The notes below the pieces were generated by a model. That model was given only the letters and a program-made list of their open reading frames with translations. It did no database searches and was not told where the DNA came from. This document shows positions 1-56,696 of a stretch of 64,000 nt of DNA, one piece after another. This DNA comes from Fennellomyces sp. T-0311 (lineage: Eukaryota; Mucoromycota; Mucoromycetes; Mucorales; Lichtheimiaceae): assembly GCA_025266875.1 (NCBI GenBank), contig JALLLT010000024.1, forward strand, positions 62,001 to 126,000. The letters run 5' to 3'. Every line of letters begins with the position of its first letter. Positions within the stretch are counted from its first letter, which is position 1. A program made the position numbers and the translations under genes.

Positions 1-2
1 AA

Positions 3-2081
3 CCCCTGATACAGCCATCAATACACGACTGGCGATTTATCGATGGCACACCGATAATCAGAGATGAAACTGATTTTACCATATTTTTTACAAACCCACT
101 ACCAGAACCAAAGATAATACCAGAAGGGACATTACTTGGTGTGTATGAAGGAGATATTCTCGACGGAAGGAACGTTGAAACACGAGCCTACGATATCAAC
201 ACCGATATGTTACAAAGAAGGGATATCACCATTGCAGAATTTACGTTCATGCATGCATCCATGGATGTTGGAGATGGTCCTCAACCATACCCAGAACATA
301 CAACCAACCGCTATAAAGTACGAATAGTGGAAGTGGTTTCGATACCTCCTAAAGACAGTATCGCCGTAAAAGGAAGATTACTTATACCCCCAACGTCGAA
401 ACTGAGATTCGTACCAAAGTACGGAGAATCTTCTCAGGACCTACGCCAGCATTCTTTCGAAGGATCTGATATACTGCCAGGAGAAACATCTTTTTGCATT
501 ACAATTAGCAACGCTTTAGATACAAGTTTAATAATGGTGCCACCGAAACTAATCGGAATCTACCTTTCTGAGGAAGAGATCCATGCCGAAGAATTATCCA
601 ATTCTTTCAAGATTCATCCAGTACCACTATCTGAAGAACGAAAACGAATGATCCCACCACCAGAGATAGATGATCCAGAAATCGTCAAGGACTTCTATGA
701 GTTGATTCGTGCTTATCAAGATGTTTTCAACTGGGATGGTGAAACCGTTGGAAAAACAGACCTTTTGACCTTTAAACTCGATGTTGGTGATGGACCACCG
801 ATTAGATCTCGCCCATATCGGCTATCTCACGCAGAATCACAAATAATGAAGCAAGAATTGGAAAAGCTACACCGAATGGGAATCATCCGTCCTAGCAAAA
901 GTCCATGGGCATCTCCCGTCCTTCTTGTTCGAAAGAAATCCGGAAAATGGCGATGCGTGGTTGACTTGCGCAAGGTTAATAGCCGACTTAAAGGCGACGG
1001 TTACAGATTGCCTCGCGTAGAAGATTTATTCGATAAACTTGGAACAGGAAGATACAGAAGTTCAATCGATACAACACATGCATTCCATGTCGTACCGATT
1101 GAAGAAAGCAGCATCCCAATTACCGCTTTTGTCACAGACACAGGTGCTCTTTGGGAATATACCAGAATGGTCCAAGGATGTAAAACGAGTGCATCCTACA
1201 TGCAACGTTTAAGTGATTTGGCATTCAAAACAGTGGTGGATATGCAAGCAGCCGTCATATTCGTCGATGACGTATATGTGTACAGTAAAACGGCCCGTCA
1301 ACATTTGTTCCATCTACAATGTACATTCCAGGCCTTACGAAATGGAGGACTTACCATATCACCATCAAAGACCTTTTGTTTCAAAAAGGAATTGACCTTT
1401 TTGGGGCACATTTTCACAGACGAAGGAATCAAACCGGATAACAGCAAGATCCAGAAGATCAAGGATATCCCAATTCCAAGAACGAAAACGGAGATTAAAT
1501 CATTCTTGGGACTCGCCTCTTATTACCGCCGTTTTGTACCAAGATTTGCAGCCATAGCAAGGCCATTACATAATCTTACCAAGGATGGATTACAAACATG
1601 GTCGCCAGCAGCAACAGAAGCCTTTAATAAGTTGAAGGAATGTCTGACTACTCCACCAATTTTAACATTACCGGATTACGAGTCAAAATCGCCAATTATC
1701 CTCCAAACGGATGCATCAAAAGATGGACTAGCTTGCATAGTTTGTCAAGAAGATGAAGAAGGAAGAGAAAGAGTGATAAGCTATTTATCCAGAGCAACAA
1801 ACAAGGCCGAGTCAAAGTACAGTGCAGTGCGATTGGAGTTATTATGTGTCTATTGGGCATGTTGCAAGTTACGCCCAATGCTATATGGACGCAAATTCTT
1901 ACTCGAGACAGACAATACCGGAATTGTTGGACTTATCACTTCATCTGACAAGCTAACAGGTGCTGTCGCACGTTGGGTTATGTACCTAAGTGAATTCGAT
2001 TTCACTTTACGTCATAAACCTGGAAAGAAGCATACCAATGTGGATTACCTATCACGATTACCTGGTTTAATCAAGAAATAG
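3..2081 (+). CDS. Retrotransposon pol, protease-like region/reverse transcriptase/RNase H (5'-truncated by window)
   Basis: The frame is open from the first bases of the window, so the protein starts upstream and the ATG at 141 is internal. The N-terminal third is compatible with a retropepsin region but shows no clear catalytic DTG/DSG. RT is recognisable from the [18 protein letters not shown] block (near 900-960), the VDLRKVN block, the catalytic FVDD box (near 1262) and the [18 protein letters not shown] thumb-connection motifs (1396-1530). RNase H follows with QTDASKDG (about 1705), a conserved E in the SAVRLELL helix and ETDN (about 1910). It ends at TAG 2079-2081, and the integrase frame begins at the very next in-phase base of the -1 frame. 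It is a replication enzyme of a fungal retroelement. RT identity is firm; the protease assignment is weak. Confidence 0.9.
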
Positions 2082-3702
2082 TCTACCAACCGACCAAACG
2101 GGATGTCATTAAACTCAACCGCCGCTTTGCTTTATTACCACGAAGATATCTATTAGAACACCGGAACAACAATTTATCTGTCAACACTATCAACATTTTA
2201 ACATTATCAGTATTACAACAATGGAAGACAAAACAGTACGACGCTTTGAAATATTACCTCGAAACCTTGGAATATCCTAAGGATATCTCGGCCAAAACTA
2301 AACGACAACTGAAAGGCCAATTCAAAAACTTTTTCGTCAACAACAACAAGATCTACAGAAGATCAAAGAAACTACCGCAACTTGTGCTTAGAAAGCATGA
2401 AATCGAAGAAGCTATATTCATGGCACATCAACACATTTTGGGTGGACATTTAGCATTCGCCAACACCCTAGAAAAGATCAAGCGACGCTATTGGTGGTAC
2501 GGAATGACTCAAGACGTACGCCAGCATATACTTCATTGCGATCGATGCCAGAAGCAAGGCAAACCATTAATACAACAAGAACTCCATCCGATCAAAGTAA
2601 TAGAGGAACCATTTGCTCAATTGGGAATCGACATCAAGCACGTGTCAGTATCGAGAAATGGATCAAGATACATCATAATAGCAGTGGACTATTTTACGAA
2701 ATATGCCATCGCCAAGTGTCTGAAGACAATAACTGCTTTGGATGTTTCGCTATTCCTAATTGACAACATTATCACACAACACGGGACCCCGAAGGTTATT
2801 ATTACCGACAACGGCCTTCCGCTGGTCAACAAATTAGTCGATGCCGTTTGCAAACAATACTCAATCACAAGGCGCCGAATAAGCCCATACGCTGCATCTT
2901 CAAATGGATTAGTCGAACGTCTAAACCGCAGTGTAAAATCTGCTTTACTGAAGCTACCACCTGAAGAAAGCAAGATTGGCATTTGTATCTTCAAGCCATT
3001 ATCTTTTCTTACAACTCTTTGAAGCAAGCATCAACCCGGCAATCTCCGTTTTTCCTCGCGCATGGAAGAGAGCCGCATACACCCTTTGATAGGATAATGC
3101 AAGATGAAGACGAATGGCTAGACGACAGCGATAGCGATATCGACTCGTCATTGATTGATAAGCTGGTACATTATCACACGACAGCCTTAAAGGAGATTAG
3201 AGATACCGCTGGTGCAATGATTATCCAAAGCCAAAATAACCAGAAAAAGACGATTGAAAGCAAGATTCTATCCACGAAGAAGGAGATCAAGCAACCGTTT
3301 AGCGTTGGAGAACTAGTCGAAGTCTATCAATCCATGATAGAAGGAACTCATCTAGCTAGCATAGAAGATCGCTGGAAAGGTCCAGTAATCGTACACAAAG
3401 CTTTCAAGAAAGGATACTATCAGCTTAAAGAAATGGATGGAAAGCTTTTCCCGCGCACAACTCATGGCAACCGGATACGTATCTATCGGTTACCTAATAC
3501 CGAATATCGATGGCCTACGGTCGACGCGTCAGCAAACATAATCACGATGAAAATACCCGATGATTACCTTGAAGAAGAAAATCTAGAGGACGATAGAAAA
3601 CGAGAAGTTAAAACACGAAAACGAGGACGACCTCCGAAAGCAAAGATGAGTCAAAAACAACCCGAAACCTTGCGTCGAAGAACAAGATCATCCACGAAAT
3701 AG
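2081..3702 (+). pseudogene. Retrotransposon integrase, frameshifted
   Basis: The -1 frame relative to RT is open immediately from 2081 and continues the coding sequence without a start codon. It contains the HHCC zinc finger (HQHILGGH near 2430 and CDRCQK near 2538), then the catalytic core with D in GIDIKH, D in TDNG (about 2808) and E in GLVERLNRS (about 2910). At about 2974-2977 the frame shifts: the integrase sequence resumes at a Trp codon at 2977 in another frame and runs to TAG at 3702. The C-terminal part has a GPVIVHKAF GPY/F-like module (about 3380) and a basic tail with an AT-hook-like KRGRPPK motif (about 3620). The second shift falls inside a conserved helix, so it is probably a mutation. 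I therefore call the integrase broken unless resequencing removes the shift. Confidence 0.85.
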
Positions 3703-4047
3703 ACAAGTTTAGTAACAAAAGATACAAAAAGATCGCCTTATGAGGAGGATATGAAATTTAATTCGATCGATCCCCACATAAGTCATGTGCCAGGAACGTT
3801 TGACAAGAGTCATGTGCATCATAGTACGGTGATTACCGTATCCCAGAAAACAACAAAAAAAGTTTACAATAGATTAGAACAGCAGTATCATAGAGAAATG
3901 AACAAAAAAAAATGAAAAAAAAAAATGAGAAAATGAGAAAAGCAAAAGAGAAAAACAGAAAAGTATAAAAAAGCAGAAAAACAAAGTAGAAATAGTATCA
4001 ATTATCCAACCAACCAAACCAAAGCCTTATCTTCAAAATTACAAACA
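3703..4047 (+). other. Purine-rich spacer between integrase and the 3' ORF
   Basis: No ORF is supported here. The stretch 3850-4000 is strongly A/G-rich on the top strand with many AAAAA runs. It could serve as an internal promoter or leader for the downstream ORF, but no specific element is identifiable. Confidence 0.4.
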
Positions 4048-5004
4048 ATGGCAGACAACAACAGAGAACAAGAAAACCACGATCCTATTCAGGAACAACA
4101 GTACCAAGAAGCTAATTTGGCATACGAAGCCATCATGGCCCATTTGACAGACCCATTGGCTGCACTTGGAGTACCAGAAGGAACCGAGGAACAAGAAACC
4201 TGGGGTAATAGTAACCTATTGGGACAAATCCCTAATTCGTACTACCCCCGTGAACAAGCAACAGTACCACAATTATCACAAAGTGACGGTCAAGAACATG
4301 AAGCCGCGGGTTCATTGCTTTTGCAAGCACCGTATGAGCCAGCCACTGCTGCTACCAATAGTTGGCGATATTCAGACCCCATCTTCCAACAGATGTTTGG
4401 TAACACCGAATTTTCTATTTTGGCTAATGCAGTAACTACTGCACAAGAAGGCCCAGGACAAGAACCCGTAGTCGATCAACAAGTGCCGGGCACACCAGCA
4501 TCAATTTCATCGGCGATTTCCCAAATTACACAAATTACTGAAGACGAAGAGCAGAACGCATTATTAAATGCATTGAACGATCCCAGAAATGGAATGGGAA
4601 CAGCAAGAAGTTACCTACTTATGGGTACAGCAGTAGAGACAAACGTCTTGGACATACGAGTCGCACTTGCAAGTTATCAGGAAGAAGAGGAACGAGCAAG
4701 AACACAAGTTAGAAGATATATTCAGAAACTTGTGAAGGAAGTTCACAGCTGCCCATCTCAAAATGGCAGGGAACAAGACGAGGTTGACCAAGATCGAGTA
4801 CTTCGCAAGCTACTTCGCAATGTAGTCCCCAACTACCATGAGCGACGTAATTTGGTCGCCCACTATAGACAAATGGCGCGACAGGAAAAGCAGCATCGTG
4901 AAGAAAGGTGGCGCCGGAGAGAGCGACATCAGCAGCGCCTTGCTCGTCGTGAAAAGCAACGGCGCGCTCGTAACCAAGAACAACATCAGAGCGAACAAGA
5001 GTAG
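4048..5004 (+). CDS. Extra 3' ORF of the Ty3 element, Gln/Glu-rich protein with basic C-terminus
   Basis: This is a 318-residue ORF between integrase and the 3' LTR, with its own ATG in a good context. It occupies the position of env in retrovirus-like Ty3 elements, but shows no signal peptide, transmembrane segment or Cys pattern, so it is not an envelope protein. The N-terminal 200 residues are acidic and rich in Gln, Glu, Pro and Thr. The last 110 residues (from about 205) are highly charged, with predicted helix and dense Arg/Lys/Gln repeats such as RRRERHQQRLARR. That composition suggests nucleic-acid binding or a coiled structural protein. I do not recognise the family. A misplaced gag-like gene or a host-derived accessory gene are both possible. 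The long uninterrupted frame, unlike the broken integrase, argues for a real coding sequence. Confidence 0.65.
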   Translation: MADNNREQENHDPIQEQQYQEANLAYEAIMAHLTDPLAALGVPEGTEEQETWGNSNLLGQIPNSYYPREQATVPQLSQSDGQEHEAAGSLLLQAPYEPATAATNSWRYSDPIFQQMFGNTEFSILANAVTTAQEGPGQEPVVDQQVPGTPASISSAISQITQITEDEEQNALLNALNDPRNGMGTARSYLLMGTAVETNVLDIRVALASYQEEEERARTQVRRYIQKLVKEVHSCPSQNGREQDEVDQDRVLRKLLRNVVPNYHERRNLVAHYRQMARQEKQHREERWRRRERHQQRLARREKQRRARNQEQHQSEQE

Positions 5005-5046
5005 GATGTAAATGCGAGGGACCGCATTAAGGAAGGCGGGGAGCAT

Positions 5047-5464
5047 TGTAACGAGTAAAGTCGGTTTGTGCTACCACAGTTTCCTAATCCAATTTTTCCA
5101 TCAGATTTTTATCTTTTTTTCATCATATTCTTATCTTCTTTTTATCTTATTTTTATAATACTATACACATATATTCAACTTCTTTTTATCTTTTATTACT
5201 ACTTCTTTATCAGTGTGTAACCGCTGAACAAGTATAAATAGCCCGATTTTGCAGAGCGAATAAAGCAGTTAACTTATACTCATTGTTTACACACAAACAT
5301 TAGGCAAAGCCTTGATATCTTTTTGATCTGAATAAGCCAAAAGTGCTAAGATCTATTATTTTTGTTAACTCACCCAGCCTACAAACCTTTTTTTTTTTCA
5401 CTCTTAAACTTATATTGTGAACTACCGTTCACTCTCCTACAAGAAATACTCTATCAACGTAACA
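5047..5464 (+). repeat. 3' LTR of the Ty3 element
   Basis: It begins TGTAACGAG directly after the polypurine tract AAGGAAGGCGGGGAGCA (5029-5045) and ends in GTAACA near 5464, giving the usual TG...CA termini and about 418 bp. It carries a TATA box (5233-5240) and an AATAAA signal (5259-5264) 26 bp later, followed by a T-rich stretch, consistent with U3-R-U5. The 5' LTR is not available for comparison, so the right boundary could move by a few bases. Confidence 0.75.
5233..5240 (+). promoter_or_regulatory. LTR TATA box (TATAAATA)
   Basis: TATAAATA lies in the middle of the LTR with AATAAA 26 bases downstream. This is the normal arrangement of retrotransposon promoter and polyadenylation signals. 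Confidence 0.6.
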
Positions 5465-5686: not shown

Positions 5687-5914
5687 TTATAATCCATTGA
5701 GGGTCTCGGGCAGTGTTCTTGCAATCGCAGTTAATACGCCGTTTCTCATAAATAGCAGACTCAATTCACAGACATCAAAATAGGCTTCGTGCTTATGGTG
5801 AACGATGATATATCCATCACTGTAGCTCTGGTGTAAGGCCTCGACAATCGCATTACTTTTCGGATCCAATGGCATCCAATCGGTTCCAGCTTGATAAACC
5901 CAAATAAAGTCCAT
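5687..5914 (-). CDS. Small WWE-like domain protein, paralogue A (75 aa)
   Basis: The second ATG (5914) is chosen over the upstream in-frame ATG (5983) because a TATA box lies only about 15 bp upstream of the latter but about 85 bp from 5914, matching the 60-75 bp spacing in the four paralogues. The protein begins almost directly with WVYQAGTDWMPLDPKSN, then a conserved VE, and ends with a NG..TAIART motif. The spacing of Trp, Trp-x-Pro-x-Asp, Ser, Val-Glu and the terminal basic strand matches the WWE fold (about 70 residues), known in Deltex, RNF146 and PARPs to bind ADP-ribose or poly(ADP-ribose). Nothing else is attached: no RING, PARP or signal peptide. It is one of five same-strand copies. 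The family call is by eye and inferred; expression is unknown. Confidence 0.65.
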   Translation of the reverse strand: MDFIWVYQAGTDWMPLDPKSNAIVEALHQSYSDGYIIVHHKHEAYFDVCELSLLFMRNGVLTAIARTLPETLNGL

Positions 5915-5995
5915 GGTAACAGTTACGGCGTTTGCTGTTGTAAATATTGACACAAGATAGTACAGATCGAATCCGACATCCATACATGCATGTTC

Positions 5996-6032
5996 TTTTA
6001 TAATACATCATTACTTTGCGCCGCTTGCTAAG
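5996..6032 (-). promoter_or_regulatory. TATA plus GC-box promoter of WWE paralogue A
   Basis: Read on the minus strand, CTTAGCAAGCGGCGCAAAG (6014-6032) is followed by TATTATAAAA (5996-6005). The same two-part arrangement precedes paralogues B, C and E. The role is inferred from position. Confidence 0.5.
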
Positions 6033-7117
6033 CAATATTTCAAAGTAGGACGATATTCTAGGGGCTTACATGGCGCGCGTTGATATACTACGCCTTGCCG
6101 TTCATGATGGCGCTGTTTTGCTCAAGAAATGACTTAACTAAGTCTATTATGCTGAGCTTCCTCGTGACACCTTTTCCGTTCCTTATGTTCCGCTGTTGCT
6201 ACATATAGTCTACTCACAGAAGTATTACAGCTTCTGAAGTAAGAAATTAATCTAATTCAACTTACAGTACTCATTATCTTTTATTGGCATCATCAAGTTT
6301 TCTGTTTACCTTAATACTGAATAGTTACAGACCTATTGTTACCGACCTTTGGCCAAAAATAGCAGCGCTGTACCCTTTACTTTAAAATATTCATGGTTGT
6401 GTATACTTGCTAACATCCACCTTGTAGCATATTTGATTCCCGCCCGAGCTGTCTTGAATAATATGTCTATGCTCTGCTTTATCGCAAGATGGTCCAAGAA
6501 AAAGCAGCTTTTTCGGTATACGTTGCACGAAAGAGATTCTTATAGCGCTTGTATTACCGCAGAAGCAAGTTACCAATACAATACGTAGGAGGAACCTTTG
6601 TCCATGTTTTAGTTTATGTGTCGATATATGTCTTAAGAAAATGAGACGCTTCGTGTCTGTTTCCCAGAGTGTAAATTAGTTCACTCCTGTATATATTGAT
6701 TTTGCACCAATGTTTAGGTATGTATCTTTCCGTGAACCAGATGGCTTTCATCCTGTCGACCTGATTCTTCATATTTAACCTTTATACTAATTCAAAGTAG
6801 CTATTAACCGGTATATTCATATACTATATCCAATATTTATTGTTTAAATTTGTCGACAGTATTCCATAATAAACATATAAAACGATATGGATTACGAACT
6901 CTACGTACTAACAAAGTCATATGAAAACAACTAGAAAAGGAATGTATAGTACAAGAGAAAGTGAAGAATTGCATGCAATGGGAGTAAATGGATGTGTTTG
7001 ATGAAAAGTGAATATAATGTATATAATGGCAGTGATGTAAAAAAGGAGTATATGATGGTTGTTGATTTTGTAAGCTGCGTGTCACCTAAATAGCTCCACT
7101 GGGATTAATGATGCTTG
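6033..7117. other. Intergenic spacer, WWE array
   Basis: About 1.1 kb of AT-rich DNA with no supported gene. It contains a TGGCGCGCGTT motif near 6070 that recurs near 8795, so it may derive from the same amplified unit as other spacers in the array. Confidence 0.4.
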
Positions 7118-7348
7118 CTAAGCGCCAGTTCTTGCAATTCTGGCTGTCACTCCGTTGGAAAAGCGCATATATAAACCTCCTTCGAAGGTTGGATCCACGT
7201 AGACACGGGGGTCTTGTTGGAACACAATGTATCCAGGACGGTATTCACGATATAACTGCTCCACGCGAAAGTTACTCACAGGGTCGAGAGGAACCCATTC
7301 ATTTCCGCCGGAATACACCCATCTGGCCATCCCGTTGTTTTTGTACAT
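7118..7348 (-). CDS. Small WWE-like domain protein, paralogue B (76 aa)
   Basis: A single-exon ORF with two possible starts, ATG 7348 or in-frame ATG 7330; the second gives a protein starting MARWVYSGGNEWVPLDPVSN, closest in layout to paralogues C and E. It carries all array hallmarks: the first Trp, W-x-P-L-D, S-N, V-E, a Tyr-Val-Asp (YVD) about 30 residues later, and a C-terminal FSNGVTARIARTG strand. In WWE domains the last strand carries the Arg residues that contact ADP-ribose; the two Arg here are in comparable positions (inference). No membrane segment or signal peptide is present. A strong TATA and GC box lie 64 bp upstream. It is the best preserved member and a good reference for the family. 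Confidence 0.72.
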   Translation of the reverse strand: MYKNNGMARWVYSGGNEWVPLDPVSNFRVEQLYREYRPGYIVFQQDPRVYVDPTFEGGLYMRFSNGVTARIARTGA

Positions 7349-7411
7349 GATATGTTATTGATAGAAAAATGATGATATAACACAGGCGGAATTGTGCATT
7401 CCGCCCTTTTC

Positions 7412-7437
7412 TTTATATACTTTTGCACCGCGCCAAG
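7412..7437 (-). promoter_or_regulatory. TATA plus GC-box promoter of WWE paralogue B
   Basis: The minus strand reads CTTGGCGCGGTGCAAAA (7421-7437), then TATATAAA (7412-7419), 64 bp before the ATG at 7348. The GC box is nearly the same as that of paralogue E. Confidence 0.6.
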
Positions 7438-9758
7438 ATCATTTAAGAAAGGAGGCATGTTTCTTAGTCTAGCAATGGAGGAGCGCCATGTCGCACCGAC
7501 TTTGGGGGCGATCAGGCCGAGATACGTATTTCGGTCGCCGGAAGCGCCCTGTGCCTCTGTAACACGAATTCTTTTTTTTTGGGAGGGACAGGTTGGACTT
7601 CAATGCGGAGTGTCATTTTACTACCATCGGGCATATATGTTTAGACGATCAGTATAAACAATTCTGCAACCATATTATATTTTTCCCGCCTTTTTTTGGT
7701 CACGAAGCACAACTGACCCTTTGATCGCGCCACCATATGGAAGGCTTGGTAAGCGTTTTCTTGGTGATTTTGCTAGATTGCTGAGCAGTCATTTTATCCC
7801 ACTCCTTTCCACATGACTGGAATCACCGCCAAATTACGGAAGATACGATCAAATTGGCACGCAGGTACCATCATCGCTCACCTTCAGTAGTACAACATAT
7901 CTCGATCAACACATAAAGCAATGAAATGTCCGTCGTCAGATGCCAAGTGCTTCTGACTTCGTTTACCGAAACTTTATAATGTAATTATGCAGCGCCAGTG
8001 TGCAAAGCACGCCATCTATGACATGCGGTGATGAAAATGCGTATACATACGAAGCGTGACTTCAGCGATCAATTTATGATCGCGAAGGTACGAATTGTAT
8101 TGTTACTGCTTACCAGTCACTAGGATATATGTAGTGCATCTGTTACATTATCAAGTACAACCGAAACGCTTGTTTCTTTATAATTTTATGTGTGTATAAG
8201 TCTTCGTTTCAATAATTACAAAAAATTGGTTGAGATTTATTCAATCATTTAATTGATAAAAAAATATGGTGAGGCAATAACGCATTTCATTGAGGCCGGG
8301 AACTGATAATTTTATAGCAAGCAATAACTGAAATAAAGTATCACAGCTGGAAATGATGCATACCATGGAAAGAACCCGATGACTACACCAAAATGTTTGC
8401 TCCCAAATACTCTCTTGCTCTATGTAGCTGAATGGATTCAACATCTACTTACTCTAAAATACTTTATTATGATACCAACTCTTCACAAAGAGAGTTGCTT
8501 AAAAGATACTGTGTACAGCTCCCAAGGGAGCTCAATAACTTATTTTGCTATAAAGCTTTATGACTATTACGTGGTATGCCTAGCATATGACGAGTCTACT
8601 AGAGCAGATGAATTCATTACGATGACCGTAAAAGAGATTGTACATTCTGAGTGTATTCGAGTTACTATTCCTGGTCTGAATAAACTCAGCATTTTTTTTT
8701 TAGAATGTCAGCGATATGATCTATGATCTACACTTGCCAAGGTGCTGCTTCCGAGCGACGACGGATGAAGTCCGTTATGGCGCACTGGCGCGCGTTACAC
8801 ATTCTCTATTTAGAGAAGAAGGGGAAGTACCTATAAGCGTTAGCTGATCATTCACATGCTATCGTAACTAACGGCCACATCTGTACAATATCATGCCTGA
8901 GAACCAGCTCTCTCGATTTTGAGTTAGTAAAAGGAGAAGGACGACAAATAATGATTACAGGAACGCTTCAACATCAATGTCGTATATAGTACAAATGCAT
9001 ATAAAACGACCCACATAGTAGTATTCCATTGTATTACTTATGTTTATTTATCATAGTGCTGCTATACGCTAGCGAATACATAAAATTGTTGATAGGCAAC
9101 GTATCAGTTGCCTACTAGTGAGTTTAAAAGGCCATGTGATTATGTTACACAATATATCCAAAGTGAGGGATATGATACAACATTGCTGGGCTTAGCAATG
9201 TCCCCAGGTAAAAAGTCATTTCTGTTATTGGATTCTATATCAAAATTGTATTGCAGTACTCATACCAAGGACTAATCACCAAATTCGATCATGCGTAGTG
9301 CTTCGATCGTGCTTAACTTGGGCGCCACAACTTGTGTTTATAGCTGTACCATTTTCTTTTGCTTGTATTGCTCTTGAAATACTCTCATGCAAGCTTTTTA
9401 GGTATACGAAGAAGGATCTGGAAACGATATTATGAAGCTCTACTGTCGCTGATACGGGGCAGCAATTGATATATTTTTTCTAAGGTTTTTGTGCTTATGC
9501 ATAGGGGATTTGGACATACAATAAATTTGAATGAAAGAACGCGATTTAAAAAATGAAATGATAGTAAAGATTATAAGTTGGAAATGAAATGCTTTGGAAA
9601 ATTCGTAATGGAAGTGGGGTTAATGAGGTTTATGATATCACTTGGGTGCATGCAATGTCTAAATAACCGAGATTGGATGGAAAATTGGAGTGTATGGTAA
9701 CTGTGGAACATGCGTCCGTAGCCGGATAAGTAGTAGCAGTGAGAGAAATATCCGCCCG
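7438..9758. other. Intergenic spacer, WWE array
   Basis: About 2.3 kb without a supported gene. It includes a TTTCCCGCC-type motif near 7680 that recurs near 10320 and 10830, and a 115-codon plus-strand ORF (8379-8726) that has no recognisable domain. The spacer shares short motifs with the other spacers, suggesting old duplication of gene plus upstream DNA. Confidence 0.4.
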
Positions 9759-9965
9759 TTAGTAGCCTGTCCTTGCCATCTGGGCTGTGACACCATTAGA
9801 GAAACGCAGGAGAAGGCGACGGGCATCCACAAAGACTCTTAGGTTGGGATGGATTACGACGTAGTCGGCTTGTTGTAAATAGTGCATTCGTTCAACGACA
9901 TAGTTGCTCCTGTCATCCAAAGGTGTCCACCATTCATTCCCGGATTGATAAACCCAGCGGTACAT
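9759..9965 (-). CDS. Small WWE-like domain protein, paralogue C (68 aa)
   Basis: The ATG at 9965 gives a protein that starts MYRWVYQSGNEWW and is essentially nothing but the domain. Conserved positions are the opening W-V-Y, the central T-P-L-D, S-N, V-V-E, F-V-D, and the C-terminal RFSNGVTAQMARTG. It has an extra Trp next to the second conserved Trp. It keeps the N-G-V-T-A and A-R-T-G signature of A and B, although the surrounding DNA has diverged, which argues for selection on the protein. A TATA box lies 63 bp upstream with a GC box before it. Function is inferred as an ADP-ribose-type reader by family; no partner is visible nearby. Confidence 0.7.
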   Translation of the reverse strand: MYRWVYQSGNEWWTPLDDRSNYVVERMHYLQQADYVVIHPNLRVFVDARRLLLRFSNGVTAQMARTGY

Positions 9966-10027
9966 GATGCTGTATATTCGATGGAGATAGTTGATAATAG
10001 AGATAAAACGCTATTTAGCATATTGTC

Positions 10028-10056
10028 TTTTATACAATTTTTGCGCTACGGCGAAG
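10028..10056 (-). promoter_or_regulatory. TATA plus GC-box promoter of WWE paralogue C
   Basis: The minus strand reads CTTCGCCGTAGCGCAAAAA (10038-10056), then GTATAAAA (10028-10035), upstream of the ATG at 9965. Confidence 0.5.
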
Positions 10057-11242
10057 TACATCGTTTAAAAAAGACAGTGCTTATCCTTGTTACAATGACA
10101 CACATAGAGCGCCATATGGTTAATAAATTTGGATGCGATACGATTGTAATTTCGGCTGTCGGAAAAGCCAACCCACGGACAGAAGTGTCATGCTCAGCGG
10201 GAGCGCCAGATTGTACCACTTTTTTAATTTTAGACTGTACGGTAGCACGAAACACGTCACTTTACACTCATCCAACTCAATGTATTGCAGATCAAAGCTA
10301 ATATAAACTTATATATTGTTTCCCGCCATTTTTATCAATGAAGAAGCATTCAAAAGAGCTGCCACTTATTTTCCATTAAAATACATATTTAATCATATGG
10401 AGCTTTTGCAATAATAGCTCTTTCAATGCTAATAAAATGCTGAGCAACATTTATTTGACGTTTAACTTACCAACATCCCGCGGATGAGAGCGTTATGAAA
10501 TCGGGACATGAATCTAAATGCTGTCAGTCCGATCATGGAATAATGGATAGGTATCTTTAACGCCAAGTGATGTGCCGTGCTGCGTAACAATAATCATGTA
10601 CTACTATGTCACGGGCTGGGATAGGCCAAGCCGGCATATTATGGACCTGTGCATAGAATGGCTTTTTGCGGCGTCTCCAATTACATCATTTCTTCTGTAA
10701 ATAGTAAATATAGTCGGCGTTAATATGGATATGGACGTCAGTGTCTTGATACTATGTTGGCCATGTAGAACGGAGAGTACTACTACTTAATAAATAATGT
10801 TTAACACCGGGATGTATCCGGGCGTGGCCATCTTTTTTTCCCGCCTTTCTGGAAGAATTCCAATCTTGAGCCTTTTTAATACGTACGTATAAGCTAGCTA
10901 TTAGATGTCCCAGATTATTATGTAGCTATGCTATATTTATATTATGTAGCCTCTAATTTATTTTTGTTTGAAAAGAAAGTAGGCATAGAGAGTAATGTAC
11001 ATCAATTACCAGAGCATAGTAGCATGGGAACATCTAGATGTAGAAAGAATTGAGGGGTAGGACATGTAAGTAGCTGTAGTTTAAATGAATGAGAGGGTGT
11101 AGTAAAGGACAGGATGAACTATGTACATATGTAATCGAACATATTATGGTAGGGGGTAGTATGTTACAGATGACAGGTATATCTGGATCCAGCAAAAGCG
11201 TGCGCTCAGAGTCGCAAACAAAGATGTTGCCAGGTGCGATAT
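10057..11242. other. Intergenic spacer, WWE array
   Basis: About 1.2 kb with no supported gene. The part just upstream of paralogue C resembles the equivalent part upstream of B (shared GAGCGCCAT at about 10110 and 7482, and a CCCGCC plus T-run). A second CCCGCC motif at about 10840 may mark the edge of a decayed extra unit. Confidence 0.4.
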
Positions 11243-11482
11243 TCATTGAAAGCCTCGAAAAATGTACAGCTCCATACTATTAAGCCACATTAAAGTGCTT
11301 CCAGGGTCGACATGAGCGGGAAATTTCCCGTCGACAAATATATTCCCAGATCTGCCGAGTACCCACAACCTCTCCACCTCCAAGTTCGAATGAAAATCAA
11401 AGGGACGCCACGACGTTCCAGATTGATAGTACCATTGTGGCAGTAGAAGTCCAGGTCGAGGCCGTGCGTACATACGTCCCAT
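11243..11482 (-). CDS. Small WWE-like domain protein, paralogue D (79 aa, most divergent)
   Basis: Starts at ATG 11482 (or in-frame ATG 11473). After a 15-residue N-terminal extension rich in Arg and Pro, the domain begins WYYQSGTSWRPFDFHSN, then LEVE and a VDGKF/HVDPG segment. The first part aligns well with the other four copies. The C-terminal strand is changed: the N-G-V-T-A and A-R-T-G signature is replaced by a LNSMELYIF sequence, removing most of the basic residues that would contact a phosphate-rich ligand. It could be a neofunctionalised copy, or a copy with an unrecognised 3' intron or frameshift near 11270-11300. A TATA box lies 58 bp upstream; the GC box is not clear. Confidence 0.5.
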   Translation of the reverse strand: MGRMYARPRPGLLLPQWYYQSGTSWRPFDFHSNLEVERLWVLGRSGNIFVDGKFPAHVDPGSTLMWLNSMELYIFRGFQ

Positions 11483-11539
11483 GATAGAGTATAGAAATGT
11501 TGATTATGAGAAGACACTGGATTTGATTCTAATGGGCTG

Positions 11540-11547
11540 TATTTATA
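11540..11547 (-). promoter_or_regulatory. TATA box of WWE paralogue D
   Basis: TATAAATA on the minus strand, about 58 bp upstream of ATG 11482. Unlike the other copies, no clear GCGGYGC box follows upstream. Confidence 0.4.
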
Positions 11548-13398
11548 CTGGACTTTTCATATGACGTTACAAAACCTACGTATAATCCAACTTCTATCGA
11601 TTACTTGTAATCGGATGACTTTACTTCGCTCGTGCGCCACCGGCTCTGGCTAAGTATGATTTTGGATTGTGTTAATGGAACATATATGGATTTACATTGG
11701 GATCTACGAAGTATAAGTTCATAGCACGTAGATCAGTATCTGCACTGACCCTTGCGTAAGCATTTAGACCTTATCTATTAAAGTAATCAGCCTAGGTGAA
11801 TGGTAATAACGGTAGGTTTTTTGCCTATCGTCTAAAGTAAATATTTTCAGTGCGCCAACATTTTTCTACGCGAATGACTTCGGATATCGATCATTGGTGG
11901 ACCGATAGTGGCGTCAATAAGAGCAAAAAGTAGAAACTACATTAAAAGCGAGACGACTAAAAAAGGTTAGAACCGATCTGCTTTTGAAATCATAGCCTTC
12001 ATTTTGAGTTTCGTCTATGGCTCCCCTCGCTGTTCGCGTGGTGATGCGAAATGATCTTAGTCGTCACGGGATTTTTAAAAAGGGACGCCCCCACTTTTTT
12101 AGGAGATTCTCCTCGTATCATTCTGACGACGACTTTGCTAAAATTTAATCCATACTTCAAAGCTAACAACGGAATGCGTTACTTTGGAGACGTCTCTCTC
12201 CATTCAATTACTTTTTACCCATAGCCATTGATTCCTCCCGCTCATGACCTGACGTCAAAATAGAATAGTGGCGCACTCTCCCAAGAAGCTTGAATACGGT
12301 AGCATTTCTCTTTTTTTTTGGCAAACCTTATCGCCACGAGATCCGGGCAGAATCTGAAAGGTTATTCGATCAGATAATTCTGTTGATTTCCCGCGGCCGA
12401 TTACCGTTGACAAAACGCACAAAGCTACATATGGCATATTAACTGATAATTGATGCGGCTGGAACCGGTTTGAAATCATAATTGTAGTAACAAGAAGCCT
12501 TTAACGTTTTGATCGCCCTGCCACACAAGCTAGCGTTCTTAAACGTCATATATCCCAGATAAAGACAGATGTACGAGCTACTGCGGATTGCGTAGAAAGC
12601 GTGAAATATTTTAATGACAGATAAATTGTGTGCTAAGGCGGGCAGTGTTCAGTAGACCGAATGTTTACATCGCGCCGCACTATGGGTCACGCGTACATTC
12701 GCCATTTATTGGTGGTAAAAAGAAAATTCCCGTGCTTAGGCGATGCTTACATTAGGTCCCTGCTTCTATCATGAACATGAGCCAAAATTAGGACTTTACT
12801 TTGTCAATAAAAGGATTTGCTTGCGCCATGGAAACAAGCGAATAAGAAATCGTAGTCGTACTATTGCTTCCGGAATAGATCAGGCGCCACAGCTGATAGT
12901 GGGGCTTTGCTCTTCTGGATCCTAAAATAGTGCCATTGTTTCATTGCAACGGGAGAAGGCGATTGCCGTCATGATGTGCATGCTATCTTGCTGAAACATG
13001 CTGAGCCAGAAATTCAAAAATTTCGCTAAATAGAAAGCAGTTTTCATTTACAATTATACCTTATCCATTAGCTATGCCGTCGTTTTCTAGCTAGTGTTCC
13101 ATATCCCAATGACGGTAATCAAGCCACGTTAAAAAGACTTGCTTAACAGCTATTTGTATGTATGTGCGTATTGAACGTATCCTTGGAATATATTACATTG
13201 AAATGATGGAATTTGATGTACATAAAAATGAAGATCTAAGCATGAAGGCGAAAAAATAAACGTGCATAAAGTATAAAAACAAGAGCGAAGAAAAGAGAGT
13301 AACTACTGCAATTCAAATAATATCGGTGCCGCATATGTACGTAGATTGTTCGTTTGTGTATATTGAAAAGTGATGCAATGAGGGATCATCAAATTTCG
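11548..13398. other. Intergenic spacer, WWE array
   Basis: About 1.85 kb without a supported gene. An ATCGCGCCGCAC motif near 12670 resembles the GC box of the WWE promoters, but no WWE ORF follows it, so it may be the remains of a lost copy. Confidence 0.35.
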
Positions 13399-13605
13399 TC
13401 AGGAGCCTGTTCGCGCGATTTTGACCCAGATGCGATTCTTGTAGCAAAGACTGAGATCGTATGTATCGATATAGACTTGGTATCGCCGATGGAGAAAGAC
13501 GTGACCGCATCGACGACGATAGTAAAGACCTTCGACCAAATCATTACTGACAGGGTCAAAGGGCATCCATACGTTTCCTGCTTGATAAACCCAGAGGTAC
13601 GCCAT
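13399..13605 (-). CDS. Small WWE-like domain protein, paralogue E (68 aa)
   Basis: The ATG at 13605 gives a protein opening MAYLWVYQAGNVWMPFDPVSN, followed by LVE, a YIDTYD segment and a C-terminal VKIARTG. The N-terminal half is very close to paralogues A and B. The C-terminal half has lost the N-G motif but keeps the final A-R-T-G. Size (68 residues) equals that of C. A strong TATA box (13679-13686) and GC box lie upstream. It closes the array; the next gene (GET4) is on the other strand 1.4 kb away. A 189-codon plus-strand ORF covers this gene in antisense and is taken as a shadow. Confidence 0.67.
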   Translation of the reverse strand: MAYLWVYQAGNVWMPFDPVSNDLVEGLYYRRRCGHVFLHRRYQVYIDTYDLSLCYKNRIWVKIARTGS

Positions 13606-14970: not shown

Positions 14971-16306
14971 ATGGCGCATAAAGGCACTGAAAAAACTTTA
15001 CAAAAGCTCAAAGATTCCGTCAGCAATGGCAACTACTATGAGGCACATCAAATGTACCGAACAGTAGCTCGCAGGTACTGCAGGTTTATTTATACCAGCA
15101 ACTGAAACGCGTAACTAAACTCTTTGTTTCCTTTGAATGTGAAAAAGGTACAACAAGCAACAAAAGTATGCCAAAGCTATACAATTATTACACGATGGCG
15201 CTGTATCATTGATGGAACATAAGCAATATGCCTCGGGATCTGACCTTGCCAACTACATGCTGGACACTTATAACATGGGCTCCGTCACTGTCGATGAGAA
15301 ATCGCTTGGTAACAGTGTACTACTTTTGGATAAATACAGTCTGCTGATACGTATCGGTCATAGACCGTGTGGTTGAACTGCTCAGTCTGTATCCAGCCGA
15401 CGAGCCTGGCCGCAAGACGTTTATTCACAATGCTTTTAGGTAATATATGACTAACGAAAATGCGTACCGGACATCAACTAACGCCACTATCCAGTTGGAC
15501 ACAAAAGCATGGCGAGTATAGAGAAGGTGATCCAGAACTGCACGACTACGTTGGAACGATGTTTTATCATGGTACACGGCTGCTGGTGGATATGGATAGA
15601 AAGAGAATCTCACAAAAGTGGCGTGTTAGAGGAGCGCTATGCACCAGCAGAAGAACATTTGCTCGTTGGTACGGATCATAGTGCTGAGCTGTTGGGTCAA
15701 GTGGCAACTAGCTGGGCCAAAGCAGACGGAAACTCACCAGCTGGTCTTTTCATTGCTCGCGTCGTCTTCCAGTTAAGTTTGCGTCCATAAGAAATAGCAG
15801 AAGCTGACTGGATGGTTACAGATTGTTGGCGATGAAGAACGTTCATCACGCTTCTTTGGCATACACAAAGTTTATCGAGGATGCCAGTCCGGAAGGCACA
15901 GGTGCTGAAGCGAAGATCCGTCGTGCTCCTGCGGATGAGCCCATCTCTGAACCCGTGTACGCAGACAGCTGGCTTAATTTCGCGCGTCTTGTCCTGCTGA
16001 CGGTGCAGCGCGATGCAGCTGATCTATTCCGACAGCTGAGAGAATCGTACAAGCCGATGACTCAGGAACAAAAGGGCTTCGATGAGGTAAAGGTTGATAA
16101 ACAATAAGGGTTCGTATACTCAACTGCTTGAAAAGCTTTTGGATGACATTGGCGAAGTATTCTTCAACATACCGCGTCCACGAAAGCAAGGCAACATGCT
16201 CCAAGATCTGATGAGTAGTCTCTTTGCTGGAGGACCACCGCAACCACAACGTCAGCAAGTCACCGGCGGATCAAGGCCAGGAGGATCAGCGATGGAATTA
16301 GATTAA
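14971..16306 (+). CDS. GET4: GET4/TRC35 family protein, tail-anchored protein insertion
   Basis: Get4 bridges Get3 and Get5 in the cytosolic GET pathway that delivers tail-anchored proteins to the ER. Seven exons restore one frame of 331 residues: 14971-15074, 15148-15308, 15364-15439, 15495-15571, 15630-15771, 15822-16086 and 16136-16306. Family landmarks are YYEAHQMYRTVARRY in the first helices, IQLLHDGA, SGSDLANYMLD, GDPELHDYVGTMFYH, EEHLLVGT, the LLLTVQRD helix and the C-terminal IGEVFFNIP. Length agrees with yeast and human Get4 (about 310-330). Introns are 48-73 nt with GT-AG ends. It is convergent with an INO1 3' fragment 61 bp downstream, and a broken second copy lies at 20.4-21.0 kb. 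Identification is by family motifs; exon edges were fitted by hand and all phases agree. Confidence 0.88.
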
Positions 16307-16367
16307 GTTTGGTTTGCAACAAACAACAATTGTGTTTCATTTTCTGCATATAAAAAATCGGTATCTT

Positions 16368-16548
16368 TTACTGCTTCCAGATCTTGTACTCGAGACCTAT
16401 GTCGTTTTTGGGAGCCAAGCCGGTGCAAACTCTCAAGATGTTCTTAATAGCAGTGGGCTGTCTGCCGAGGGCGTTAACGGTGGGAACGCCGGGTGAGCCC
16501 ATGGGGACTTTGAGCATGTAGCTCAGAATCGGCGTGACGCTGTGGAAC
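16368..16548 (-). pseudogene. INO1 3'-end fragment (duplicate)
   Basis: The minus strand encodes the last about 60 residues of myo-inositol-1-phosphate synthase, including SYMLK, VNALGRQ and YKIWKQ followed by a TAA, aligning with the end of the complete gene at 21115 with many substitutions. Similarity stops abruptly at about 16548, within a codon run corresponding to about residue 465 of the intact protein. There is no start codon and no promoter. It is the truncated half of a segmental duplication whose other copy keeps INO1 whole and GET4 broken. Confidence 0.85.
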
Positions 16549-17296: not shown

Positions 17297-18231
17297 TTGA
17301 AAATGTATATTTATTTATTTGTTGGAAAATGATTGACCTGCTTCTATAGGCATAAGGTCACTTCCTTGCGGTACGAAGAATAGTACAACCATGTCTGAAA
17401 AAAACCCTTTAGGAAGAAAAAGGACAGGTCGGATTTGAAAAAAATAATGGCCAGGTGCTTGGGATTTTAGTGGGAGATAATGCTATGATAGATACCATCA
17501 CACATATCATGTGCGTTGGGTTATGGTGTGGTCAGTAGGGGCTTGCAAGGCGATCTCCAGGGCTGGTTCTTCTTCCCCTATCTCAGCATTTGGGTGGCTC
17601 AGATAGTCGATCTTGCGTAACGTATGAATCAGGGCGGGCCATGCCCTCTTCCCTTTGCCTCGTAGCAGTCCAGCATTTGAACGCGGCAGGCAGTTCATTA
17701 TGTGGTCCAGCGGTTGCATCTCGTCAGTTAGCTCGGGGATAGTGCCGAATGCATCTAGTAACTCCTCCATCGAAGTACCTATTTGGGGGCAAGTAGTGTA
17801 GTGCTCTCGTGTCGCGGCAACAGTACCACATCGACAGTTCTTTAACGGGTATGAAGGGAGCCAGTGCATGTGCCACCGGACTAGCCGATGTCTATCCTTA
17901 GGGAAGGCGCTTAAATATCGTATTGGGTCAACTATTCTCTGTTGGCGGAGGCAGCGGATTGTCTTGTACTTGTTGGCTCGTGATTTGAATTCGTCGTCCC
18001 GTTTGTTTGCAATTGCAGCTTCAGTTGGGTCCTTCGGTGCATCTGGATGGCCGTGAAGTTTGGCGTACTCCTTATAAAGTGGTTTTGCTATTGTCAACTT
18101 TTTCCACTGGTCGTCGTTAGGCTTCTTCTTGGCGTCCCAGAGGATTGACAGCTCTACTGATCGTGCCATGCTCGACATCGGTAGTGTGCGTAATCGAGTG
18201 GCAAATTTGAGTTGTAGAGCTCGTGCCCGGA
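17297..18231 (-). mobile_element. 5'-truncated LINE (non-LTR retrotransposon) copy 1
   Basis: A minus-strand LINE tail of 935 bp flanked by a perfect 15-bp target-site duplication ACACCATGGTAGTAG (17282-17296 and 18232-18246). The body holds the post-RT C-terminal part of ORF2 and a 3' UTR with a block (17345-17430) shared with the copy at 45.1 kb, ending in an A/T-rich tail (ATAAATAAATATACATTTTC) rather than pure poly(A). Truncation at the 5' end and a long TSD are typical of target-primed reverse transcription. Confidence 0.87.
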
Positions 18232-18238
18232 ACACCAT
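17507..18238 (-). pseudogene. LINE ORF2 C-terminal fragment with zinc-knuckle-like motif (243 codons)
   Basis: The ORF is uninterrupted but corresponds only to the region downstream of the reverse transcriptase. It includes a RHRLVRWHMHWLPSYP block and a CxC...REHY..C motif (about residues 134-150), the Cys/His knuckle often found at the C-terminus of LINE ORF2 proteins. Its ATG and first two codons lie in the duplicated target sequence, not in the LINE, so the start is accidental. Homologous segments occur at 18.4-19.8 kb (plus strand) and 45.1-45.76 kb (minus strand). No activity is expected because RT and endonuclease are absent. Confidence 0.8.
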
Positions 18239-20399: not shown

Positions 20400-21046
20400 C
20401 ATGAGTGGCTGCTCGTACATACGGAAGTTGCGACTTTAAGCTCTTTCTTAAGTTTCGTGAACGTACTAACAAAAGCTCGGAAGTTCCATCAGCAGCGGGA
20501 ATTACTACAGATGCAGGAAGAAATAAAAGTATGCCACGACTGCTTTTGGATAGGTCTAAGTCTACCAAGAAACAACAGGAGTTGACCAAGCAATTGTATC
20601 TCTGGGGTGCACAAAGTTTATCGAGGATACCGGTCCGGAAGGTGCAGGTGCTGAAGCGAAGACCTGTCGTGCTCTCGTCAATGAGCCCGTCTCGGAACCT
20701 GTATACGCTGGCAGCTGGCTTAATTTCGTGCGTCTTGTCCTGCTGACAGTGCAGCGCGATGTAGCTGATCCATTCCGACAGCTGAAAGGATCGTACAAGC
20801 CGATGACTCAGGAACAAAAAGGCTTCGACGAGGTAAAGGTTGATAAACAATAAGGGTTCATATACTCAACTGCTTGGAAAGCTTTTGGATGACATTGGCG
20901 AAGTATTCTTCAACATACCGCGTCCACGAAAGCAAGGCAACATGCTCCAAGATCTGATGAGTAGTCTCTTTGTTGGAGGATCACCGCAACTGCAACACCA
21001 GCAACTTACGAGCGGATCAAGGCAATATCGGTAATGGAATAGATTA
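20400..21046 (+). pseudogene. GET4 duplicate, internally deleted
   Basis: Its start (20400-20460) resembles the GET4 upstream region, a short piece resembles exon 1, then similarity jumps to GET4 exon 6 from about 20610, covering EDTGPEGAGAEAK-like sequence, the LLLTVQRD helix, the intron with its conserved splice signals (about 20835-20885) and the terminal exon with IGEVFFNIPRPRK. Exons 2-5 are missing, and the start ATG is lost. Substitutions such as V for A in the RDVADPF segment and a changed C-terminus show relaxed constraint. It sits convergent to the complete INO1 gene, mirroring the functional GET4 next to the INO1 fragment at 15-16.5 kb. Confidence 0.82.
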
Positions 21047-21114
21047 AGAAATTTGGTTTGGAACAAACAACAATTGTGTTTCACTTTATTTCTGCATATA
21101 AAAAACGGTATTTT

Positions 21115-22773
21115 TTACTGCTTCCAGATCTTGTGCTCGAGACCCATGTCGTTGTTGGGGGCCAAGCCGACGCAAGCTCTCAAGATGTTCTCAATTGCAG
21201 TGCGCTGTCTGCCGAGGGCGTTGACGACAGGAGTGCCGGGCGAGACCATGGGGGCCTTGAGCATGTAGCTCAGAATCGACATGACGCTGTGGAACGAGCT
21301 GAACTTGCTCATCTCACCGGTCTTGTACTGGATACGGGTAAGCAGTTCACCGAGAACAACCAAGTCAATGATCAAGGGCGAGGCCAAGAAGGAATCCTCA
21401 CAGACGTTGTACACCGAGATGGACTGGCGACCACCCATGAAGATGTCGCACTCGTACTCATCCAAGGCACGCTTTGAGTCACCAACCGAGGGGACGTACT
21501 TGATGACAACGGTGTGGTCGGGGTGCTCACCGGGCTTGTACAGGATGTCATTGGCAGCAACCATATCGTCAACAACGGTCGACTTGGAGATTTCCTTGGA
21601 ACGGAACTGCTTGTGCGAGGACAAGTTCTTGCCGTCGTTGTTACCAAGGTGATTGTACGAAGTAATAGCAACGGGCTTGATACCAGCGTTCACCAAAAAG
21701 TCAACGATGGCGGACTTGAACTTGGTCTGGCCGGACTTGAAGTCATCACCACCAATGAAAGCACGCTCACGCTCGGCCAACTCGATCAGACCAGGAACGA
21801 AAGTGTTTTGGGGCGAACCGTTGATGAAAGGAACACCTTCTTCGATACAAGCCAGGGCAAAGATAGAAGAAGGAGCAACCTCGTCGTGAGAAGTAGCAAC
21901 GGCCTTCAAAAAGTTATCAGCAGTGTCGTTGACACCGGGGATGAGTTCGGCGTAACGCTCGGTGTTGGCGGTCCAGACAACGACAACCTTGTCGAGGTTA
22001 TTGGCGGCCTTGAAATCGCGAATGTCCTTGCGGATATGGTCGCAGTGCTTGCGCTTGTCTTCGCCGGGGATAAGGTTATCGGCACGGTCAGACTGGTTAG
22101 CGGCAATGAAGTCAGGGTAGTAGATGGATGGGAGAGGGACCATCTTGCTCATTTCATCGCGAACTTGGCGCTGCAAGTCGTATTCGAGGACCTGAGCACG
22201 TTCCATGGATTCAGCCATGTTCTTGCCCGAGATATCCCAACCACCAACGACCAAATCAGTAGGATCGACCATTGGGAGCATCTTGTGCAACGGCACGTAG
22301 ACATCTTCACCTTCGGGAGTCACACCCAAGCGAACAGTCGAGGCTTGAGTGACGGAACCCCAGTAGTTGGCCTTGTGGGTGCCGCTCTTGGTGCGCCATG
22401 TCAAATCGTGGCGGTGGGAGAGGATCGAAGCAGTCAAAGTGGTACCATTGTTACCACCCCAACCAACCATCATCAAACTGGAATCGAAGAATCAGCTTCC
22501 ATCGCCCATCATCACAGAGAAATCCCTTTTTTTCACTTACCCAACGCGAGGAACAGCGCGGTCAGTCTTGAAGTGGTAGGTCTGCTCGACAGGCTGAACG
22601 ACCATAGAACCATCGGCTTGTTTGTTCACGATGGTGTTGGTGTACGCGTACTTGGAAAGGATGTGCGAGTCAGTGTACTCGACGAGGTCGGATTGAACCT
22701 TGAAGAGAGGCTTGGGGGCACTTGCGGAAGCATTGGGTGCAGCAGTAAAATCTTCAGCGTGAGGAGGAGCCAT
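21115..22773 (-). CDS. INO1: Myo-inositol-1-phosphate synthase
   Basis: It converts glucose-6-phosphate to inositol-1-phosphate with bound NAD, the committed step of inositol and phosphatidylinositol synthesis in the cytosol. Two exons, 22541-22773 and 21115-22477, give 531 residues, the usual fungal length. The start MAPPHAEDF is chosen because it fits the family N-terminus, and the longer upstream frame crosses the apparent 5'-UTR intron acceptor. Motifs are the dinucleotide loop [10 protein letters not shown] (immediately after the intron), [25 protein letters not shown], and [10 protein letters not shown], ending HKIWKQ. Codon use is strongly biased (CC-ending codons and GAC, AAC and GTC preferred), consistent with high expression. 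It is divergent from nothing nearby; a 3' fragment duplicate lies at 16.4 kb. Confidence 0.95.
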
Positions 22774-55565: not shown

Positions 55566-56322
55566 ATGACTACGGATCGCCGAGACCTATCGAAGCTTGC
55601 TTCACAGCTGCACTCCGAGCATGATCGACAACATTATGCCAAGGTTATCTCTATAGCGGAAAATTTACAGGCACGAATCCAAGAGCTCCAGAAACTCAAA
55701 GCTTCATGCACTAGTAACAATAGTAAGTTTCTTGGACGATCGTTACTTTTTCTTTACCCTTCTTTTTGCTTTTTTGTGGATTCATTGTGTATATATTCTA
55801 TTCTCCTTGACTAACCAATTTCTTTTCTTTGGTCGTAATTAAGAAGGTCGATCAGCAGACGATAAACAACCGCTGGAACGGTATTATCGATTGCTCGAGC
55901 GTTCCCAATCTATCCAAAAGCAGTTGACACGTCTGTCTGCCGAATATTCGCTTCCACCACATCCACCTCCCTCTTTCCCTCCCCCTTCACTTCCTCCTCC
56001 TCCACCACCCCCAAAGAATACCTTGACGGCCCACCACAATCGTCTACCAACGACACCTCCACCAACACCCAAGAAAAACAACGATGATTCACCCATCACA
56101 CCACCTGCATCCCCACGCATATACACCAAACAAGTCCGGTTCGAAGAAAAAAATAATGATGAACCAATTGACGAACCCCCTCTCCCACCATTGCCACAAC
56201 CTAGTAGATTACCACCCATCACCCACGTCCAAAAGGTATTTGGAGTTGGCAAAACATTGTTATCCGCTACAAACAGACTCAACGTGCGTGTAAGAGAATT
56301 AATGGGTTACGCGGATTCCTGA
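55566..56322 (+). CDS. Proline-rich protein with N-terminal helical region, unknown function
   Basis: Two exons, 55566-55722 and 55844-56322, give 211 residues; the intron (121 nt) has GTAAGT, a CTAAC-like branch point (55810) and an AAG acceptor. Residues 1-90 are helical and charged (LSKLASQLHSEHDRQHY, ISIAENLQARIQELQKL, YYRLLERSQSIQKQLTRL), loosely reminiscent of MIT or TPR-type helical hairpins. Residues 95-165 are a proline-rich linker with runs of Pro and Ser-Pro/Thr-Pro sites, and the C-terminus has TKQVRFEEK, a possible PP1-docking RVxF-like site, and a final amphipathic helix. Pro-rich runs could bind SH3, WW or profilin. Function is unknown. A separate 113-codon ORF starts 33 bp after its stop. 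Confidence 0.65.
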
Positions 56323-56354
56323 CCAGAACGTATCAACTCAGTAACGACCTTGTC

Positions 56355-56696
56355 ATGTCGCGTGCCCATATTACCCCTTTGCGTCTTTTTACTGCAACTG
56401 AATTGCTCACTGGACAACCCAAAGCGGTGCTCAAGATTGTCATTACTGCTCATCACGACTACGGATTTTCTTTCTATTGGCCAAGCTCTCCAATCGAATC
56501 GTCCTCCAACAAACCTAACCGCGCCAATGATATCGCAAAGTTCGCCGTCGTTCCCGATTCTTTAGTTCAAGACGCTCTGGATAGTTGGATTGGTCAACAA
56601 GGAGGTGTTCTTCCACCGCTTCATCAAGCTACTCATATTCTCCGAGAAAGTATAAAGATCTACGTCGTGTATAATCGCTACCATTTTAATCTGTAA
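56355..56696 (+). CDS. Hypothetical protein, 113 aa
   Basis: A single-exon frame starting ATG 56355, 33 bp after the stop of the proline-rich gene and ending 125 bp from the convergent carbonic anhydrase. It reads MSRAHITPLRLFTATELLT, then ITAHHDYGFSFYW, and ends in a LRESIKIYVVYNRYHF segment. Composition is protein-like, without low complexity. It may be a separate small gene or a further exon of the preceding gene through a splice I could not place in phase. No family recognised and no signal peptide. Confidence 0.4.
   Translation: MSRAHITPLRLFTATELLTGQPKAVLKIVITAHHDYGFSFYWPSSPIESSSNKPNRANDIAKFAVVPDSLVQDALDSWIGQQGGVLPPLHQATHILRESIKIYVVYNRYHFNL

Follow-up and report, generated by a model that had tools for sequence, protein, structure and literature searches.

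A tandem array of predicted free-standing WWE proteins in Fennellomyces belongs to a Mucorales-wide family with a replaced nucleotide pocket

WWE domains are best known from large ligases and PARPs, within which they read ADP-ribose. In RNF146, HUWE1, TRIP12 and DTX1 the domain (Pfam PF02825) is one module of a large ligase and has a working ADP-ribose pocket, while the WWE domain of PARP14 sits in a 203 kDa PARP. As set out in PMC11269756, a conserved Gln of the pocket hydrogen-bonds the adenine, on which a Trp (in RNF146 a Tyr) is stacked, and the proximal phosphate is held by one Tyr and one Arg. Here we analyze a stretch of 64,000 nucleotides from Fennellomyces sp. T-0311, a member of the Lichtheimiaceae in the Mucorales (the window; contig JALLLT010000024.1, here C100, positions 62,001-126,000, in a genome of 45.6 Mb and 182 contigs), which carries an array of small genes resembling the ligase domains in predicted fold, W-W-E core, closing Arg and domain length. 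Unlike the ligase and PARP14 domains, the WWE domain of the array is free-standing and amplified; it makes up the whole predicted protein, and the aligned pocket residues are missing.

As the initial annotation had described, five same-strand open reading frames (ORFs) of 68-79 codons are present in the window, each running from ATG to stop (genes A-E, Table 1). The window cuts the array, since two more genes lie upstream at C100:54,902-55,108 and 56,175-56,375, giving seven genes (A-G) that span 54,902-75,605 and all keep open frames. The C100 locus is thus a tandem array of seven intron-free ORFs, each predicted to form one WWE domain, free-standing and about 68 residues long. Genes A-E share W-x-Y, W-x-P-[LF]-D, S-N, V-E and a later D. 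Three details of the motifs first proposed need small corrections, in that gene B reads WVYSGG and lacks the [AS] of the first motif, gene C has one extra W (WWTPLD), and the A-R-T of gene A is not terminal, since the protein runs on for eight residues (its closing Arg leads into TLPETLNGL in place of the usual TG-x). Gene D has no ART end, and an in-frame ATG at 7330 gives gene B an alternative product of 70 amino acids (aa). Between window positions 5000 and 16000, the two longest direct-repeat families (D1 and D2) coincide with the ORFs, and each of the other eight consists of two copies, 20-28 bases long, that match at 74-81%. Across the genome, start and stop hug the WWE domain in 15 open copies with no ligase or PARP domain alongside in the same protein, as read from genomic ORFs to which upstream exons could be joined; the view that the domain is the entire protein is borne out to that extent.

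Table 1. Array genes and long terminal repeat (LTR) element, in window positions unless a contig is named
Feature	Position	Strand	Remarks
Gene A, mini-WWE protein	5687..5914	-	75 aa, start ATG at 5914
Gene B, mini-WWE protein	7118..7348	-	76 aa
Gene C, mini-WWE protein	9759..9965	-	68 aa
Gene D, mini-WWE protein	11243..11482	-	79 aa
Gene E, mini-WWE protein	13399..13605	-	68 aa
LTR retrotransposon, part in window	1..5456	+	inside array, between second and third genes
3' LTR	5047..5456	+	410 bp trimmed to TG...CA, identical to 5' LTR
5' LTR	C100:58,533-58,942		outside window

The WWE assignment is clear in structure prediction and less so in profile searches. With the hidden Markov model PF02825, none of the window genes reaches the cut-off of 21.1 bits (E, 18.5 bits; D, 14.8 bits; A, B and C, no match), but family copies at C100:54,962, C100:56,271 and C119:199,912 exceed it. 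At E ≤ 1, 12/15, 23/31 and 20/28 members of three sets match. AlphaFold2 (AF2) models of genes E and D adopt the WWE fold, a half beta-barrel around one helix, with predicted local distance difference test (pLDDT) values of 93.8 and 89.2, and every high-Z match to either model in structure comparison is a WWE domain, in line with the initial proposal. W5 and W13 occur in 100 of 100 family rows and E25 in 99, with one gap. That these are functional genes of a free-standing WWE family is, in our judgement, nearly certain.

Further members are scattered through the genome. Searches with five family members and the Pfam WWE model, none of which lists all genes, yielded at least 16: seven on C100, three on C119, two on C172 and one each on C98, C106, C124 and C129. 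This is a lower bound, as only the best candidates of the six-frame search were scored. With gene B as query, that search of the genome recovered C, E and A (E-values 1.8e-13, 1.5e-10 and 1.9e-10) and D at only 0.033; gene D is linked to the family through gene F (1.3e-16), the C98 gene (1.1e-8) and gene E (4.5e-5). The third C119 copy (L048:7551-7754) is broken by in-frame stops and is the sole broken member among the 16. The same genome holds other WWE-type domains, namely a PF02825 match at L051:3774-4553, a PF23463 (WWE_2) match at L055:4469-4669 and a sub-threshold PF02825 match at L056:4282-4722. Near two WWE loci lies a related sequence in opposite orientation (L049:9317-9866 and L050:6144-6551), possibly a transposon.

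Free-standing WWE proteins are not peculiar to this array. At the thresholds used, three protein searches gave 20, 84 and 82 clusters, 118 different in total; 114 of these are 66-100 residues long, although the search admits only proteins near the query's length and longer relatives could not appear. Among the 23 genera named, the 13 looked up all belong to the Mucorales and fall into eight families, which confirms the presence of the family in related genomes; the other ten we take to be Mucorales as well. UniRef already names some of the proteins WWE domain-containing, while others are deposited as hypothetical, and two (P0011 and P0014) are marked partial. The genes on C106, C124 and C129 have their products among the clusters, but none of A-E is among the database proteins listed, which exposes an annotation gap, and the best database identity of A-G is only 0.29-0.49. 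No description of a stand-alone WWE array was found in the open-access literature searched, so that the array is apparently undescribed, as first supposed; the free-standing domain itself is widespread in the Mucorales. As a side observation, the deposited Circinella minor protein P0020 is missing the central part of the domain and with it the conserved Glu, and may reflect a wrong intron call.

Phylogenetic analysis separated two branches. The tree comprised 53 rows (15 own genes and 38 of 88 database proteins, P0036 with its N-terminus trimmed) over 72 columns, with many forks unresolved. A slow, order-wide branch ends in TIARR or similar and includes the C124 and C129 genes. The small deposited proteins, for example from Mucor, Thamnidium, Rhizopus and Phascolomyces, are mostly of this type, whereas the array belongs to a second branch (100/97) that mostly ends in ARTG-x and also holds the two open C119 genes, the C172, C98 and C106 genes, one Circinella protein and two further clusters. 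Slow members of the second branch are the C172 genes together with seven relatives, including Circinella and Phascolomyces proteins (mean pairwise identity 0.68, nine rows), in contrast to the fast array (0.32, seven rows). Gene D groups with F, which lies outside the window (99/95), and B groups with C (100/87); duplication therefore probably continued within the array, consistent with the amplification first suggested. A single origin of all seven array genes is neither shown nor rejected by the approximately unbiased (AU) test (p-AU 0.42). Judged from these sequence comparisons, the array arose by amplification in one lineage of a free-standing WWE family that spans the Mucorales, and its copies diverge fast. 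Two slow second-branch proteins from Circinella umbellata (P0001 and P0115) come from contigs of equal length and are perhaps a pair on one contig, like the C172 pair.

The aligned nucleotide pocket bears directly on possible function. Alignment by hhalign, a HMMER match to PARP14 and gapless counting from W5 agreed on one register, placing the adenine Gln, stacking residue, phosphate Tyr and phosphate Arg at positions 53, 7, 44 and 61 of gene E. We counted residues in 130 rows, made up of 15 own genes plus 115 of the 118 database proteins; three that duplicate own genes were left out, as was the broken copy on C119. The adenine Gln is found in none of the 130, the phosphate Tyr in none (one gap) and the phosphate Arg in a single row, the C119 gene C119a. 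An earlier count of 100 rows, with 85 of 88 database proteins, gave Gly in 97 at the place of RNF146 Arg110 and mostly Val or Ile (76) at that of Trp114. Shifting the register by one residue still leaves the seven array genes without the Gln and Arg. The replacements are conserved in the slow order-wide branch (V44 in 93/110, L53 in 79/110, Y61 in 108/110), which favours a new use over simple loss. The suggestion that the array encodes readers or decoys of ADP-ribosylation is thus not supported, the residues that would hold the nucleotide being missing in the aligned register.

We tentatively propose that each of these proteins is an intracellular binder with a single domain, built on the WWE scaffold but lacking the nucleotide pocket. 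Apolar or aromatic residues mostly take the place of the adenine Gln, phosphate Tyr and phosphate Arg, so we expect the groove to contact a peptide or protein surface and not ADP-ribose. The proteins would most probably work in trans, either as adaptors for some partner or as competitors for it, the same partner being reached by other proteins with a WWE domain of their own in cis. A shared task would fall to the slow order-wide branch, and the array copies would be specialized or redundant under birth-and-death turnover. There are precedents in PMC10450202, which gives a non-binding WWE domain in PARP14 and a predicted contact between the catalytic domain and first WWE domain of PARP7, and in a reference title on binding of the Deltex WWE domain to the Notch receptor. 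A pocket-less, free-standing WWE array with predicted protein binding in trans is our best explanation overall, with a chance that we put a little short of even. A fold kept without nucleotide contacts and widespread in the Mucorales suggests a second, nucleotide-independent use of the scaffold, for which the family offers minimal, easily expressed proteins. It is a doubtful further step that the whole order uses the pocket-stripped fold as a small intracellular recognition protein, which one Lichtheimiaceae branch amplified into a binder repertoire with groove differences from gene to gene and changing targets.

Several observations weigh against pocket-less binding in trans. The stacking Tyr, which RNF146 uses on adenine, is kept in 128 of 130 members, and C119a has an Arg at the canonical place. 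A slow sister group (C172, Circinella, Phascolomyces and other relatives) has Arg60 in 9/9, Gln54 in 7/9 and Gln55 in 8/9 rows, one or two residues off the canonical places, and a nucleotide function is possible there. The pocket argument itself rests on sequence and profile alignment. The deviating tails of A, D and F could mean early decay, and a comparison of the family loci found no common gene as a candidate partner.

Decay is the alternative that survives best, though we consider it unlikely: the tandem copies would be drifting duplicates, and only the slow branches (C172, C124 and C129) would matter to the cell. Faster divergence of the array, the break by stops of one of three C119 copies, the tails just mentioned, the low database identities and the absence of A-E from the proteins listed would all fit. 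The selection analysis points the other way. Identity at codon positions 1, 2 and 3 is 0.49, 0.61 and 0.34 over the ten A-E pairs (chance about 0.25) and 0.79, 0.84 and 0.43 in the C172 pair, so that positions 1 and 2 are more conserved than 3. Moreover, omega = 1 was rejected in all nine pairs fitted (of 105 possible; five are array pairs), with twice the log-likelihood difference (2dlnL) at 11.9-44.0, in agreement with the selection on protein first suspected from conserved proteins with divergent spacers. Synonymous sites are saturated between copies, which leaves omega values not quotable and site-wise positive selection beyond reach. When substitutions alone were simulated, with 0.3 per site in each lineage, 11% of the copies stayed open, which for five makes a chance of about 2e-5; in the array seven of seven are open. 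Both array models (E and D) also fold with high confidence.

Alternatively, the proteins could read ADP-ribose or poly(ADP-ribose) with a pocket rebuilt from other residues, masking ADP-ribosylated targets or competing with WWE-bearing ligases. The modelled fold, retained Tyr and near-register Gln and Arg residues would suit such readers or decoys, and ADP-ribosylation probably exists in this genome, which has one PARP catalytic locus (L060:1189-3447) and two macrodomain matches. Upstream of the catalytic locus is what we read by eye as a WGR-like sequence, with a presumed PBZ-like finger beside it (L060:909-1340). A PARG search of the genome gave no match, without a working control, in line with PMC4245714, which reports no obvious PARG in Mucor circinelloides or in Rhizopus delemar. 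Phycomyces, reported in PMC2964712 to be without PARPs, is not among the named matches, though no search aimed at it was made. Targets for a reader may therefore exist, but the family proteins, with adenine Gln, phosphate Tyr and phosphate Arg almost wholly absent and mostly Gly and Val or Ile at the RNF146 Arg110 and Trp114 places, do not look like readers, and we regard this alternative as unlikely too.

Least probable, and given only a slim chance, are the fast-evolving conflict proteins of the initial annotation, intracellular recognition or restriction factors that would diversify in conflict with incompatible nuclei, transposons or viruses and make contact through the groove: the rate difference is real, the amplification is lineage-specific and in tandem, aligned ligand positions 14 and 61 are M/V/T/R and T/A/L/V in the array versus V (63/110) and Y (108/110) in the slow order-wide branch, several giant viruses have predicted WWE-fold proteins of about 100 residues, and the WWE domain of ZAP is reported to hold a positively selected residue (PMC11361444), yet overall selection is purifying, saturation puts site-wise positive selection out of reach of the present copies, and many positions away from the groove are equally variable. 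The predicted folds of the small giant-virus proteins are alike (Aureococcus virus, 101 aa, TM 0.84; Terrestrivirus, 100 aa), but identity is at most 21% in the WWE rows of the structure comparison, and one family member used as query found no relative in viral contigs.

The array is interrupted by an LTR retrotransposon, presumably Ty3/Gypsy-like, whose polymerase ORF encodes a reverse transcriptase domain and an RNase H domain. Its LTRs are identical over 412 bp, and with trimming to TG...CA a 4-bp target duplication (ACGT) lies at window 5457-5460 (LTRs and duplication at window 5047-5460 and L047:6529-6942), indicating recent insertion into an older array, a more exact account than the original placement of the genes next to transposons. 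Elsewhere in the window, positions 15864-16548 and 20610-21295 form a direct duplication (89% identical); the second copy overlaps the 3' end of ORF 21115-22476 (-), which resembles an inositol-phosphate synthase, and the first may be a gene fragment. ORF 17507-18238 (-; 243 aa) has no Pfam match and resembles the tail of a LINE-type element; related pieces lie nearby.

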